Shown in pieces: positions 1,771 to 11,025 of a stretch of 64,000 nt of DNA (positions are counted from its first letter, which is position 1; every line of letters starts with the position of its first letter). The notes under the pieces were generated by a model that was not told where the DNA came from, did no database searches, and saw only the letters and a list, made by a program, of their open reading frames with translations. Source of the DNA: Candidatus Raymondbacteria bacterium RIFOXYA2_FULL_49_16 (GTDB taxonomy: Bacteria > Fibrobacterota > OXYB2-FULL-49-7 > XYB2-FULL-49-35); assembly GCA_001789205.1 (NCBI GenBank), contig MFYT01000073.1, forward strand, positions 47,452 through 111,451. Reading direction: 5' to 3'. The translations under genes were made by a program, and so were the position numbers.

Positions 1771-3525
1771 CTACAAACCAGGAACCAGGCCTGCGGTTGC
1801 CGCCAGAATAAGCAGAAAGGGCGCGTAAAAGGTGAAGTCGAGTACCAGACTGAACACTGCCCAGCCCGCAAGCTTGTTCTTTATGAACAGGTGATAGACC
1901 AGTAAAAGATACGCAGGGCATACCAGAAGCAGAAGGCTGTTTGCGGGAATGAGGCTGGTGAAAAAGCCTGCGATGGGAACCAATGCGCACAGAACAAGGA
2001 GGGGATAGGGAAAAAGAAGCGATAGTTTTTTACCCAATACAATAGGCAGGGTTTCTCGGCCTACTATGTTGTCGCGCTGAATGTCGTACAAATCGCGGAA
2101 TATGGTCCGGATAAAAACCAAAATGAAAATAAAAAGAAAGGCCACTATCTCGCCGGAAGAAGGCAATGAAGTGAACAGGCTGACGCCCGCATTGGGCAGC
2201 ACTGCGCAGATTACCGCCCATGCCATGGCAATGCCGATGTCTTTTGACAGCGTAATGTCTTTCAGGCGCCTGTTGCGGAGAAAGGGCAGGTTGTTTTTCG
2301 GCAGCAGTTTCATGTGGTACAATATGCCGGCAAAACTGGCCACCAGAAGCAGGATGAATTCGCTCAATCCCGACTGGTAGGCAAGCGCAATGGACAGCAA
2401 ACCCGTGAGCATGCAGAGCAGAATGGAAATTTTACGGTGACGGTAGATATAATCTGTCTTGAATATCTCCTGGTACTGGTTTTCCGTGATATTGGTCAGA
2501 TGGTTCAGAATGTACATTGAATTGATGTAGAGCCAGGCAATGGCCATGTGCAGGTAATTCGCGGACATGCCCTGGATGTACGATGCGGTCCACGCGGCAA
2601 GCGCCGCGCCAAAGGCAAGGTAGATATTGAAACTCACGGCTATTTTTACCGACTCGATGAATATCCTCTGGTACAGGGGTCGCTGATGGTCCGCGATTTC
2701 ACTCAGCCGTTCGTAAACCCGGTTAAGCAGCCATGACGGAGTGGAGGCGCCGGACGCTATGGCCACACTCCTGGTTCCCGTGAAATCAGCAGGATTCAGC
2801 TCCGCCTCGGTCTCGATGTGGAACACATGCGTACATGAGGCGCGCGCAAGGTCGGCAAGCCGTGTTGAATTGGCGCTGTTTTTCCCGCCCACAACCACGA
2901 CCGCGTCAGAGCTTTTTGACAGTGCAACCACCTCGGCTTGGCGCTGGTCAGTGGCGCGGCAGATGGTGTCGAAGATTGCCGCGTCCGCATATTGCGCACG
3001 GATGCGTTCCTTGATCCGTTCGTATTCACTGAGATTCTGTGTTGTCTGTGCGACCAGGCAGACCTTGCCGAGGCCAGGCAGTTTTCCAATCTGGTCCGGC
3101 GTCTGGATCAGGTATCCCTTGCCCTTTGCGCAACCAAGCAGGCCCACCACCTCGGCGTGGCCTTTGTCGCCGAAAATGACAATGGCGTATCCCTTGGCGT
3201 AATACTGTCCGATGATTTTGTGGATACGTTTTACATGGGGGCATGTGGCGTCAACGATGCGCACAGGCCGGGCCTCCATCTGGCCGCGGATGTCCGGAGG
3301 TACGCCATGAGTCCTGATGACAACCGTGGATGCGGTTACTTCGGCCGGTGTTTTCACTGTGGTGACGTTTTTTTTCCGGAGCAGCTCCATGGTCTGGGGA
3401 TTGTGGATAAGGGGGCCCAGGGTCTCAATGGGTTCATCTGATTCGTGCGCGTGTTTGAGAATGGTGTTCATGGCCATACGCACGCCCATGCAGAAACCCG
3501 ATGCCTGCGCAATGGTTATCCTCAT
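1771..3525 (-). CDS. ispH: IspH (HMBPP reductase) fused to a UbiA-like prenyltransferase
   Basis: Residues 1-275 are a complete IspH: the iron-sulfur cysteines C12, C95 and C189 and the substrate residues H41, H73, H123 and E125 are all present, with ATDQRQ, NSANSTRL and ASGASTPSW motifs. IspH makes IPP/DMAPP in the last MEP-pathway step. Residues about 290-584 are a polytopic UbiA-like domain with about eight hydrophobic segments. Its second Asp motif is clear (D478, D481, D485 in RDLYDIQRDNIVGRETLP). The first is degenerate (N341, N345, N349 instead of Asp), so its activity or substrate is uncertain. The start overlaps the upstream stop (ATGA). The fusion joins supply and use of the isoprenoid unit; context with G1P dehydrogenase hints at lipid ether synthesis. 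Confidence 0.92.
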   Translation of the reverse strand: MRITIAQASGFCMGVRMAMNTILKHAHESDEPIETLGPLIHNPQTMELLRKKNVTTVKTPAEVTASTVVIRTHGVPPDIRGQMEARPVRIVDATCPHVKRIHKIIGQYYAKGYAIVIFGDKGHAEVVGLLGCAKGKGYLIQTPDQIGKLPGLGKVCLVAQTTQNLSEYERIKERIRAQYADAAIFDTICRATDQRQAEVVALSKSSDAVVVVGGKNSANSTRLADLARASCTHVFHIETEAELNPADFTGTRSVAIASGASTPSWLLNRVYERLSEIADHQRPLYQRIFIESVKIAVSFNIYLAFGAALAAWTASYIQGMSANYLHMAIAWLYINSMYILNHLTNITENQYQEIFKTDYIYRHRKISILLCMLTGLLSIALAYQSGLSEFILLLVASFAGILYHMKLLPKNNLPFLRNRRLKDITLSKDIGIAMAWAVICAVLPNAGVSLFTSLPSSGEIVAFLFIFILVFIRTIFRDLYDIQRDNIVGRETLPIVLGKKLSLLFPYPLLVLCALVPIAGFFTSLIPANSLLLLVCPAYLLLVYHLFIKNKLAGWAVFSLVLDFTFYAPFLLILAATAGLVPGL

Positions 3526-5372
3526 GGCAGCAGTCCCTTCAATTCGGAAATAATGACTTTCAGAATAGCCGGGTTGTATCCCGCGATCTTAAAGGTATTA
3601 TTCACCAGGAATGAAACGGTAGGCTCTGTATTAAACACGGAATCTGAAAGGGCGACGGCCGCGGAAAAGAGCGTCTCTCCCTCCTTGCTGTGGGAACAGG
3701 CCCTGATTCTTACGGTATCGATATCGAGCTGGTGCGCGCACGCGTGCCATTCATCCGCGGGTTCTGGCGTCCTGGTTTCAAACCGCTGCTGCACATCAAA
3801 TCCGCGGCACAGTGCGTAGTCATAGGCTTTTCGCTTGGGATAGAGGGCAAAGACACACAACTGACGGCTGCTTTCGCGGATTTCACCCGGTCCATTGAGA
3901 CTCTGGAAAGCGTTGGTCCATTCTCCTTCCCGGGTTTTTTTTTGCGCGCGGTACGCATAGGGATGCAAGACTACGAGTGTCGCGGGAAGAGAATCAAAGA
4001 TTACGGTTTCGAATGAACGCAGCATTTCAACAAAAGGAGGATCCTGGAAAGAACCCATGATCTCGAGGCGGCCGGGCATGCGTATTCTGCTGAGCAAGTG
4101 GTATGATTTCACGACACTCTGGTTGATGCGGAGCTTGTTGCCAGCGGGGGTAAACGTAGCGCTGATTTCCGCGAACCGGGGATCGGCCGTTACAGCGCTA
4201 TCAAACAGAAAGGCCGGATATGCGGCAAGACCGTAGTGCGCAATGGTCTCTTTGCCGCGGGTGGCGTTGATATCGATAAAATCGAAACGCGCCTCGGGAA
4301 AACGGCGCCGTATTTCCATAATAATGTTCCCGGTATGGCAAGTGGGGCACGATTCGTCGTTGACCACGGTCACGGTAAAGGAGCGGGCTTTGGTAAAGAC
4401 GCACCGCGCCTTTTTTGTCATGGGATCGCGGCACACGCCGCTTTTACCCGCTTGCCTGCAGTCAGTGTCGTATCCGCACTCGGGGAACGCTACGCACGGC
4501 CCTGTCCGGGGTGCGTTGTCGCAGAAGAAGCGCTCCACCGGATAGGCGGTTATCGCTCCTTCGTATTCCACGCCATTGATGAAAAGCGTGGGTGAGCCGT
4601 TTACCTTGCGTTTTTTCGCCTCGCGTATGTTCAGGGTAAACAGGGAATCGCCTTTGCGCGAATCGACATATGCGGCAATGGCGGATATCGCCGGGGCGGA
4701 AAAACCCGCGGTGCGCGCGGCTTTTCTCCAGTCAGAGTCAATGTCCTGGTTCCTTTTCCGCAGATAATCGAGCAGCTTGTCAGGATAGAAGGCGGCTATC
4801 ACGGTTTGCCGCATGTCTTCGAGCACTTCATTGAGCCCGTGCAGGCTCACAAAGCGATCCGTGCCCTCCATGTTGCCCGAGGCCTGGCATTTGCTATCAA
4901 CTGAGGCGCCTTCGGGCAGGGGTTGGCCGGGTTCTTCAGCCTCTTGCTCGCCATCGCGCGCATGGGCGATGAAATAGAGGTTGAAGACGATGTTTTTTTT
5001 CCACGCACGCAGGAGGGGCAGCAGTTCATTGACCGCGGCAATGCCATAAGGACAGTAGCTCATGATAAAGAGGTCGAGGGTGACAATGCCGTTTTTCTTG
5101 CGTACAGGCGCATTCTTTGGTCCATGGCTGAAAAGGGCGTCGGATATCCGGGTGATATTCGCGGGAGTTGGCGCAAGCACGTGGCGCACGCCATTACCAT
5201 GACACGTTTCGCACGATTGGTGTGCGGGGTTGTTGCTCCATTCGGCATAGATGTCCTCGTGGCAGCGCTGGCATTGACCGCTGCCCGCCTGCACAGGCTT
5301 TTCCTGCACTGCGTTTCCCATACACCAGAAAAAAAGGACAAGTGCGGCAAGGGGAGCGGGGGCCATGCTCAT
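3522..5372 (-). CDS. Exported heme c / DsbA-like / thioredoxin-like chimera
   Basis: The 616-residue product starts with a hydrophobic export segment (residues 1-22) and two CxxCH heme c motifs (C34-H38 and C54-H58). A DsbA- or GILT-like domain follows with an MSYCPYG active site and a late GSPTLFINGVEY strand. Next come a Cys-rich linker and a second thioredoxin-like domain whose CPTCH could be a redox pair or a third heme site. The remainder is unassigned. It is probably an extracytoplasmic electron-transfer or disulfide protein. Both ends overlap neighbours by 4 nt, so translation is coupled to G1P dehydrogenase and IspH-UbiA. Its link to lipid synthesis is unknown. Confidence 0.75.
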   Translation of the reverse strand: MSMAPAPLAALVLFFWCMGNAVQEKPVQAGSGQCQRCHEDIYAEWSNNPAHQSCETCHGNGVRHVLAPTPANITRISDALFSHGPKNAPVRKKNGIVTLDLFIMSYCPYGIAAVNELLPLLRAWKKNIVFNLYFIAHARDGEQEAEEPGQPLPEGASVDSKCQASGNMEGTDRFVSLHGLNEVLEDMRQTVIAAFYPDKLLDYLRKRNQDIDSDWRKAARTAGFSAPAISAIAAYVDSRKGDSLFTLNIREAKKRKVNGSPTLFINGVEYEGAITAYPVERFFCDNAPRTGPCVAFPECGYDTDCRQAGKSGVCRDPMTKKARCVFTKARSFTVTVVNDESCPTCHTGNIIMEIRRRFPEARFDFIDINATRGKETIAHYGLAAYPAFLFDSAVTADPRFAEISATFTPAGNKLRINQSVVKSYHLLSRIRMPGRLEIMGSFQDPPFVEMLRSFETVIFDSLPATLVVLHPYAYRAQKKTREGEWTNAFQSLNGPGEIRESSRQLCVFALYPKRKAYDYALCRGFDVQQRFETRTPEPADEWHACAHQLDIDTVRIRACSHSKEGETLFSAAVALSDSVFNTEPTVSFLVNNTFKIAGYNPAILKVIISELKGLLP

Positions 5373-6406
5373 GGGAAAACCGCGTGGTAGGCTTTTTCAA
5401 TGGTTTTGACATCAGTCTCATCAAGAATCGAGTAGCGGCCGCGCCGCATTTCAGGCGCTTTGCGTACCGAGCACAGGAATTCCTTGCGCGAAAGCCCCAG
5501 GGCTGCGGGTGTCGCGGCCATGGAAAACCGGGTGAACATTCTGCGGACAGCGTCGGTTTTTATATGGTGAAGGTGCAAGGTAAAAAGCGTCGCAACCCCC
5601 ACCTGCTCACCGTGGCTTGAGCCTCTGTGATAGAGCAGGTCAATGGCATGGCTGATCATATGTTCGGCGCCCGAGCTGGGCCTGCTGCTGCCAGTAATGC
5701 CCATGGCAATGCCACTCATGATAAGGCCCTCAATGAGGGTCTTCAGGAGTGCGGATCCATTGAGCGCCGCAGAGCGGTGCTCAATGAGCTGAATGGCCGC
5801 GTTACGGGAAATTGTTTCGGCAAAATCGTCGATGCGGTCCTTGCCTTTGTGCCAGGCAAGACGCCAGTCCGCGCAAGCGGAGAGGTTGGAGACCAGATCG
5901 CCCATGCCGCTCCTAATGGTGCGTACCGGTGATTTTTGTATGACATCGAGGTCCGCGATGACGGCCATGGGCATGTGGGCGTTGAGGCTGCGCGTACGGC
6001 CCTTGCATTTGATCACCGCGATGGGTGAGGAGATGCCATCATTTGATACGGCCGTGGGTATGCTGATGAATCCAACCGCTTTTTCCGACGCGGCGTATTT
6101 TGCCACGTCAATGGCCACTCCTCCTCCCACGCCAATGACCGCGTCAGGCGCGCCGCGGTCGATCGCCTTTTGGACCACGGCGGTTTCAGCCAGGGTACTG
6201 TCGCGTACAATGAGGATGTCGCTGGGACATCCGATTTCCCGCGCCACGGAGCGGGCAATGGAATGGAGCGGTTCGTCGCCGGTGACAATGAGGCATTTCT
6301 TGAGAAAGACGTTGCGTTCTGACAAAAGCGGCCTGATGCGGGTGAGCGCGCCGTGATCCACGCACATGAACACGGGGAGCGGGACGTCTCTGCGGAGGAT
6401 GGCCAT
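5369..6406 (-). CDS. Glycerol-1-phosphate dehydrogenase (EgsA/AraM family)
   Basis: The 345-residue product has the iron-alcohol-dehydrogenase fold of G1P dehydrogenases. It shows the NAD(P)-binding GVGGGVAIDVAKYA (92-105), the family signature PTAVSNDGISSP (117-128) and the metal ligands D170, H249 and H265. These enzymes reduce dihydroxyacetone phosphate to sn-glycerol-1-phosphate, the backbone of archaeal lipids and of heptaprenylglycerol lipids in Bacillus (AraM with PcrB). The next two genes overlap by 4 nt and end in an IspH-UbiA fusion, which fits isoprenoid-glycerol chemistry. The start codon directly follows the T-run of the upstream gene's terminator and no Shine-Dalgarno sequence is visible. 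Confidence 0.9.
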   Translation of the reverse strand: MAILRRDVPLPVFMCVDHGALTRIRPLLSERNVFLKKCLIVTGDEPLHSIARSVAREIGCPSDILIVRDSTLAETAVVQKAIDRGAPDAVIGVGGGVAIDVAKYAASEKAVGFISIPTAVSNDGISSPIAVIKCKGRTRSLNAHMPMAVIADLDVIQKSPVRTIRSGMGDLVSNLSACADWRLAWHKGKDRIDDFAETISRNAAIQLIEHRSAALNGSALLKTLIEGLIMSGIAMGITGSSRPSSGAEHMISHAIDLLYHRGSSHGEQVGVATLFTLHLHHIKTDAVRRMFTRFSMAATPAALGLSRKEFLCSVRKAPEMRRGRYSILDETDVKTIEKAYHAVFP

Positions 6407-6442
6407 AAAAAAGAATGCCCCGCTGCAGTGAACAGCGGGGCA
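6407..6442 (-). terminator. Rho-independent terminator of the SWIB gene
   Basis: A 10-bp perfect stem (TGCCCCGCTG at 6416-6425 with CAGCGGGGCA at 6433-6442) is followed on the minus strand by TTCTTTTTT and then directly by the ATG of the G1P dehydrogenase gene. The position 25 nt after the SWIB stop fits termination of that transcript. Confidence 0.85.
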
Positions 6443-6467
6443 CCAAATACGGTTTTATCCGTTTCCG

Positions 6468-9652: not shown

Positions 9653-10837
9653 TCATTTGAACAGCTTGATCGCTTCGAGGATGAGCGCGGGCTGGTTTTT
9701 CACCGTGAGTTTCAGCAGGTCGATATATTTGAGTTTCGACGGGTCTTTGTTGATAAGTACCTCGGCCGCGGCCTCGATTGTGCTGTCGTTTACCTTGAGC
9801 ACCGCGCGCTTGAGCAGATACGAGCGTTCCTGCTGTTTGCCCACGCCGTTTTTCCAGCGCTTCTCGAACACGGACAAACGTTTTTCCGATACATCGCCTT
9901 CTGACAATGCCTCACAGGCGATGGAGGCGGCGAGCTTTGCTGAATTCATGGCAAAGGTAATGCCTCCGCCGTCGAGACAGTTGGCCATGCGCGCGGCATC
10001 GCCCACGACCATGAACCCGCCTGCCACTAATTTTTTGAGATAGAGGCCCAGGGGTACTGAGCCCACGGTGAGCGCGAGCGGTTTGGCCTTGGGAAAGCGG
10101 AGCGTCATGAAGCGGTTGAGTATCTGGACGGGCGATTCCTTCCCCGCAGCTTTTGCCGTGATGCCCAGGCCCAGGTTGGCTGTGCCGTCGCCCTTGGGAA
10201 ACATCCAGGCATAGCAGTCGGGAACGATGTTTTTGCCAAAATGGAGTTCGGGAAACCCCTCGGGCGATTCAACGTTCGTGACCCGGTATTGCGCGCAGAT
10301 GCCGATATCGTTCAGGTCGGTGATGGTGGAATTGAGACCCGCCAATTTGGCCATGCGCGATTCAATACCATCAGCGGCAATGACAATGCGGCACCCCACA
10401 TCGATCGCCATGTCGTGATGGAGCACCTTGACCCCGCAAATGGCGTCCTTTTTCCTGAGAAGCCCCACTGCCACGGTGCCGACACGTATGTCAGCGTTGT
10501 ATTTCGCCGCCATCTGGACAATGGATTTCTCCATCACAGGACGGTTGAGCATGTACGCCGGCTCCGGACAGGGCACGTTTACGCGCACCCCCTTGGGAGA
10601 TACAAAGGTAACACCGTTGACCGTATGGGTTATCCAGGAGGGATCCGGATTGATGGCAAGGGTAAGCCCGCGCTTTCCCACAAGCTCGCCGCATCGGACT
10701 GGAAGGCCGATCTCCCGGTCCTTTTCGAGCAGGAGCGTGGAAAAGCCGTTTTCGGCGAAAGTTTTTGCGGCAATGGCGCCTGCAGGCCCCGCGCCCACAA
10801 CAATGGCGTCGTAAAATTGTTCAAGGGGCAGTTTCAT
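9653..10837 (-). CDS. Geranylgeranyl reductase family flavoprotein
   Basis: The 394-residue product has an FAD-binding GAGPAG (15-20), an LLLEKD strand end, the family signature PxxYxWxFP (206-214) and VVGDAARMANCLDGGGI for the flavin diphosphate. These enzymes reduce double bonds of prenyl chains: archaeal di-geranylgeranylglycerol lipids, phytyl chains or menaquinone tails. The ATG at 10837 overlaps the ferredoxin stop (ATGA), matching the known use of ferredoxin as electron donor in Methanosarcina. A longer frame to 10900 would overlap ferredoxin and is rejected. The substrate (ether lipid or quinone tail) is open. Confidence 0.9.
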   Translation of the reverse strand: MKLPLEQFYDAIVVGAGPAGAIAAKTFAENGFSTLLLEKDREIGLPVRCGELVGKRGLTLAINPDPSWITHTVNGVTFVSPKGVRVNVPCPEPAYMLNRPVMEKSIVQMAAKYNADIRVGTVAVGLLRKKDAICGVKVLHHDMAIDVGCRIVIAADGIESRMAKLAGLNSTITDLNDIGICAQYRVTNVESPEGFPELHFGKNIVPDCYAWMFPKGDGTANLGLGITAKAAGKESPVQILNRFMTLRFPKAKPLALTVGSVPLGLYLKKLVAGGFMVVGDAARMANCLDGGGITFAMNSAKLAASIACEALSEGDVSEKRLSVFEKRWKNGVGKQQERSYLLKRAVLKVNDSTIEAAAEVLINKDPSKLKYIDLLKLTVKNQPALILEAIKLFK

Positions 10838-11025
10838 GCGTCCTCGAGGGTGAGTGCCCGGAAAGGGCAGATAATGACGCAGCGGCCGCACGCGGTGCAC
10901 TGGTCCTGCTCAATTTGCATGGACGTTTCGAGAAGGATAAGCGCGTCGGTTTTGCACACGGCAACGCATGAACCGCAGAAATCGCACTTTTGGATATCGA
11001 AAGTGATGGTTTTCTTTTTCTTCAT
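10834..11025 (-). CDS. 2[4Fe-4S] ferredoxin, probable partner of the geranylgeranyl reductase
   Basis: The 63-residue protein has two CxxCxxCxxxC sets: C14-C17-C20-C24 followed by K rather than the usual P, and C43-C46-C49-C53 followed by P. This is a clostridial-type low-potential ferredoxin. It is translationally coupled to the reductase by a 4-nt overlap. The upstream divergent gap carries AGTATATT on this strand (11053-11046), a likely -10 region. Confidence 0.93.
   Translation of the reverse strand: MKKKKTITFDIQKCDFCGSCVAVCKTDALILLETSMQIEQDQCTACGRCVIICPFRALTLEDA

Follow-up and report, generated by a model that had tools for sequence, protein, structure and literature searches.

The genome of Candidatus Raymondbacteria bacterium RIFOXYA2_FULL_49_16 (Fibrobacterota; 100% complete, 0.63% contamination) may encode the core of an archaeal-type ether-lipid pathway in scattered genes, fed by a G1P dehydrogenase (G1PDH) located in the window (the whole stretch of 64,000 nucleotides analysed here). 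We give this reading, built on the genes observed, their homology and motifs, their positions in trees and the structure of the operon, about an even chance of being right. The window G1PDH would convert DHAP to G1P, a GGGP synthase (GGGPS) on contig C28 would attach the first prenyl chain and a stand-alone DGGGP synthase (DGGGPS) on contig C68 the second. A geranylgeranyl reductase family protein (GGR) from the window may then saturate the chains, bacterial CdsA-type enzymes would need to stand in for CarS, which was searched for in the genome and not found, and an IspH-UbiA fusion would supply C5 units at the membrane.

Natural G1P-based isoprenoid membranes in any bacterium are an open question of the "lipid divide", and mixed membranes have been proposed for bacteria of the FCB group (Villanueva et al. 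2021, PMC7852524). The Cloacimonetes case has no known source of G1P, while in Fibrobacterota homologues of GGGPS and DGGGPS occur in genomes that have G1PDH and in genomes that lack it; since the phylum also has cultured members, the role of G1PDH is directly testable there by lipid analysis.

The gene run containing G1PDH

Three genes follow each other on the minus strand. The first codes for G1PDH (5369-6406; EgsA/AraM superfamily, short bacterial type, 345 aa), the second for a DsbA/thioredoxin-like protein of 616 aa that carries CxxCH motifs and has a signal-like start (3522-5372; Pfam DSBA E 1e-6) and the third for the IspH-UbiA fusion (1771-3525), and both junctions are 4-nt ATGA overlaps. 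The sequence-only reading had G1PDH joined to the fusion by such overlaps; the three genes do form one overlapping run, but the two enzymes are not adjacent, as the 616-aa gene lies between them. It had also taken the coupling as a clue to function, and here the comparison with relatives (the 80 nearest genomes, all sharing only the phylum with the window genome) went against it. G1PDH was found near none of 14 other fusion loci and the fusion near none of 11 other G1PDH loci, so that among the loci compared the linkage is seen in the window genome only. A functional operon conserved across relatives is rejected on these counts.

Homologues of the middle gene were found in 33 of the 80 relatives. 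At about 770 aa they are longer, and their N-terminal part differs, being metallophosphatase-like; for one of these homologues Pfam was blank. In the window protein the CxxCH motifs are of the haem type and stand beside the DsbA domain. In addition, the SWIB-domain gene upstream has a strong intrinsic terminator of 13 pairs (6414-6444, minus strand), which ends directly before the G1PDH start codon. This leaves G1PDH nearly leaderless, and read-through, attenuation or a leaderless start are possible readings of the arrangement.

Identity and origin of the G1PDH

The two enzymes had been named correctly from the sequence. The G1PDH matched PRK00843 with an E value of 4.6e-83 (279 bits over residues 8-335 of 345, under the 413-bit equivalog cut-off) and the solved enzymes 4rgq and 4rfl (E 1.8e-44; residues 10-297 for 4rgq) and 3ce9 (E 4.7e-52), while the fusion matched Pfam LytB (E 4.4e-86) and UbiA (E 5e-12). 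Alignment of the G1PDH with 4rgq and 3ce9 showed D123, H249 and H265 to be invariant; we take these to be the Asp, His and His metal ligands of the enzyme. The predicted activity is the NAD(P)H-dependent conversion of DHAP to G1P.

Strong G1PDH matches were found in 17 genomes besides the window's own. The enzyme is patchy in the phylum, and judging from the trees it has at least three lineages there (the window type, the short type of families f3 and f5 and the long AraM-like type of f8 and f9), and the window copy is of separate origin. Placing the G1PDH in trees had been proposed along with the lipid idea. The window copy stood apart from the f3/f5 copies, and a single ancestral Fibrobacterota G1PDH, with window and f3/f5 copies as one clade, was rejected (AU p 2e-49). 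A recent transfer from archaea is disfavoured, weakly, by the test of a grouping with archaeal sequences (AU p 0.031). The nearest relatives came from Coprothermobacter (L078/L079 and L080), with weak support for the grouping (92/65). Some Fibrobacterota, of f8 and f9 (L062, L063 and L064), have the long AraM-like type, about 440 aa in length, in place of the short one.

Archaeal-type lipid genes elsewhere in the genome

GGGPS, which the sequence-only reading had listed as the missing piece, is actually encoded on contig C28, behind alaS (PF01884 E 4.7e-42). It scored 205.3 bits against TIGR01769, the GGGP equivalog, for which the cut-off is 161.55, and the solved structures closest to it are those of GGGPS enzymes. 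A PcrB-type HepGPS is unsupported, as the match to the HepGPS model was 39.6 bits against 260 and TIGR01769 was over its cut-off. The AraM-PcrB pair of Bacillus subtilis makes up the heptaprenylglyceryl phosphate pathway. It resembles the present case in combining a G1PDH and a GGGPS-family enzyme in a bacterium, but the GGGPS of the window genome scores as the GGGP type and a DGGGPS homologue is present as well.

Five UbiA genes were found in the window genome, on contigs C68, C20, C107 and C61 and in the fusion. The stand-alone gene on C68, beside rluD and lspA, had the archaeal MjDGGGPS (6M31) as its top PDB match (8e-36), fell inside the DGGGPS clade together with it (99/94) and has both Asp-rich motifs intact; its scores were under the NCBIfam DGGGPS equivalog cut-offs. 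The remaining ones resemble MenA (C20), decaprenyl-phosphate phosphoribosyltransferase (C107) and a prenyltransferase without an assigned role (C61). The GGR lies in the window itself (9653-10900, minus strand), about 3 kb upstream of the G1PDH run, and is a candidate prenyl-chain saturase. It matched TIGR02032 at 209.7 bits (cut-off 158.8), and its top model was digeranylgeranylglycerophospholipid reductase, at 223.9 bits and under the 780-bit cut-off. A search for GGPP synthase, also proposed earlier, gave a partial answer in the form of two polyprenyl synthases. One of them scored best with CrtE (351 bits, under the cut-off of 460) and was above the FPP synthase cut-off, so that the two are candidate sources of GGPP; chain length is likewise a matter of prediction.

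These genes are widespread in the phylum. GGGPS was present in 38 of 40 relatives, a DGGGPS-like UbiA in 75 of 80 (E<=1e-3) and the GGR family in 79 of 80. Their gene contexts are conserved, with GGGPS adjoining alaS and DGGGPS beside rluD in seven of seven loci each. With GGGPS, a DGGGPS homologue and GGR all encoded, the idea of archaeal-type lipid chemistry stands at the level of the genome, as far as gene content can tell. It had been tied to a joint refutation, the absence of GGGPS together with a non-lipid grouping of the fusion's UbiA domain; GGGPS is present, and that domain forms a separate clade outside DGGGPS.

In favour of the pathway are, then, a GGGPS over its cut-off, the C68 protein inside the DGGGPS clade, the GGR, two polyprenyl synthases, and GGGPS and DGGGPS genes that are widespread and keep their contexts. 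Furthermore, E. coli given GGGPS and DGGGPS from Cloacimonetes produced lipid of the archaeal type (PMC7852524). Against it are the absence of CarS, the ambiguous source of GGPP and the patchy distribution of G1PDH versus the near-universal GGGPS and DGGGPS-like genes, which indicates that in most relatives G1PDH is dispensable for whatever those two do. The polar lipids described for cultured Chitinispirillum are an ornithine lipid, phosphoglycerol lipids with ester fatty acids and two unidentified species; no archaeal-type lipid was reported, in an analysis not targeted at one (PMC4814513).

The individual enzymes are no novelty for the phylum, as Coleman et al. (2019, PMC6431249) had already listed G1PDH, GGGPS and DGGGPS for Fibrobacteres, and in Chitinispirillum and Chitinivibrio they occur in one genome, as here. 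The window G1PDH differs in being of another lineage than the f3/f5 ones and in its operon with ispH-ubiA, and GGR and the gene contexts are added to that picture. Candidatus Cloacimonetes also resembles the present genome, as an FCB bacterium with GGGPS, DGGGPS and GGR and without CarS (PMC7852524), but its MAGs have no G1PDH and carry GGGPS and DGGGPS side by side, whereas the window genome has a G1PDH and its genes are dispersed. As far as we found in the published work compared, two things are new here: an operon whose G1PDH was acquired independently, and the conservation of the GGGPS and DGGGPS contexts.

Alternative uses of G1P

The predicted use of G1P for lipid has a serious rival, even if we consider it unlikely, in a fermentative glycerol route. 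G1PDH would reduce DHAP to G1P, a HAD phosphatase would release glycerol, NADH would be re-oxidised, and GGGPS and DGGGPS would act without G1PDH. What makes it serious is that most relatives have GGGPS and DGGGPS-like genes without G1PDH, together with the phosphatase neighbourhood and the pattern of glycerol excretion. G1PDH adjoins a HAD-II (NagD/AraL-like) phosphatase gene in all nine f3/f5 loci inspected (L264-L272), suggesting a route from G1P to glycerol there. Chitinispirillum and Chitinivibrio excrete glycerol and Fibrobacter does not (PMC4814513). The genome-richest family, f2, which by inference corresponds to Fibrobacteraceae, gave no full-length match to G1PDH. However, by the test already described the window G1PDH and the f3/f5 copies have separate origins, no phosphatase gene adjoins the window copy and, judging by the overlaps, it is co-transcribed with the isoprenoid gene ispH.

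The supply of G1P for a nucleotide-activated glycerol of the CDP-glycerol type, destined for a polysaccharide or a solute, seems to us considerably less probable. It would fit the nearest G1PDHs, those of Coprothermobacter, whose genes overlap or abut a nucleotidyltransferase gene, and a Chloroflexota relative (L111) located among glycosyltransferase genes. But neither a nucleotidyltransferase nor a glycosyltransferase gene was found near the window G1PDH, and its grouping with the Coprothermobacter and Chloroflexota relatives is the weakly supported one (92/65).

The IspH-UbiA fusion

In the fusion, residues 1-281 (2683-3525, minus strand) form the IspH (LytB) domain, which keeps the three cluster cysteines and the active-site His/Glu motifs; a search of the genome found no IspH other than this one. 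Residues 285-584 (1771-2673, minus strand) form a UbiA-fold membrane domain (46 bits with Pfam UbiA). The AlphaFold2 model was confident (mean pLDDT 83), and its two halves matched structures of IspH and of the UbiA family (4tq3, 4tq4 and 6m31), respectively. Alignment of the motifs showed that the first Asp-rich motif is degenerate (2479-2505, minus strand), reading NHLTNITEN instead of NDxxDxxxD, while the second (2071-2094, minus strand), DLYDIQRD, is intact. The acidic residues of the first motif were missing in all 30 Fibrobacterota fusions examined, those of relatives being of an N-S-L-x-S type, while positions +4 and +8 are still acidic in all 57 of the other UbiA proteins aligned, which served as a control. 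D478, D481 and D485 of the second motif are invariant across the fusions.

In the UbiA tree (71 rows) the fusion domain formed a clade of its own (100/98). Forcing the window's fusion into the DGGGPS clade was rejected by the AU test (p 0.006), and a single group of all fusions plus the DGGGPS clade was tolerated (p 0.235), so that at depth the fusion clade as a whole may be its sister. By its motifs and tree position, then, the domain does not qualify as a canonical DGGGP synthase. The sequence-only reading had suggested this function for it, in a protein coupled to IspH and G1PDH, and we now regard it as very improbable, since the weak hits, of at most 29 bits, to NCBIfam models of GGGP geranylgeranyltransferase, the resemblance of the modelled UbiA fold to 6m31 and the tolerated common group are outweighed by the separate clade, the loss of the first motif and the far better fit of the C68 gene to DGGGPS.

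With DGGGPS set aside and one of its metal-binding motifs lost, the UbiA domain most likely serves to anchor IspH or to regulate it, or carries out another prenyl reaction. A more specific proposal, to which we attach a small probability, is that it would be a membrane-bound prenyl-diphosphate sensor or anchor setting the activity of the sole IspH, as a bacterial MEP-pathway counterpart of the action of UBIAD1 on HMG-CoA reductase. In either case, a UbiA-fold domain that has lost half its metal site is still joined to an essential isoprenoid enzyme.

"Rosetta stone" IspH-UbiA fusions with a UbiA part of unknown function were described in sulfate reducers (Rao et al. 2015, PMC4746011). Those also have IspH at the N-terminus and a UbiA-like C-terminus and occur in anaerobes, but they have two DXXXD motifs according to that paper, whereas the Fibrobacterota fusions keep only the second. 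A Fibrobacterota fusion that has lost the first motif and is the sole IspH appears to be new, again as far as found in the published work compared. The fusion is present in about 31 of the 80 relatives, and in 12 of 14 of their loci its neighbours are genes for ABC-2 transporters. Around the fusions at L250-L262 these are genes for an ABC-2 ATPase and a permease, mostly divergent, which do not accompany the window fusion.
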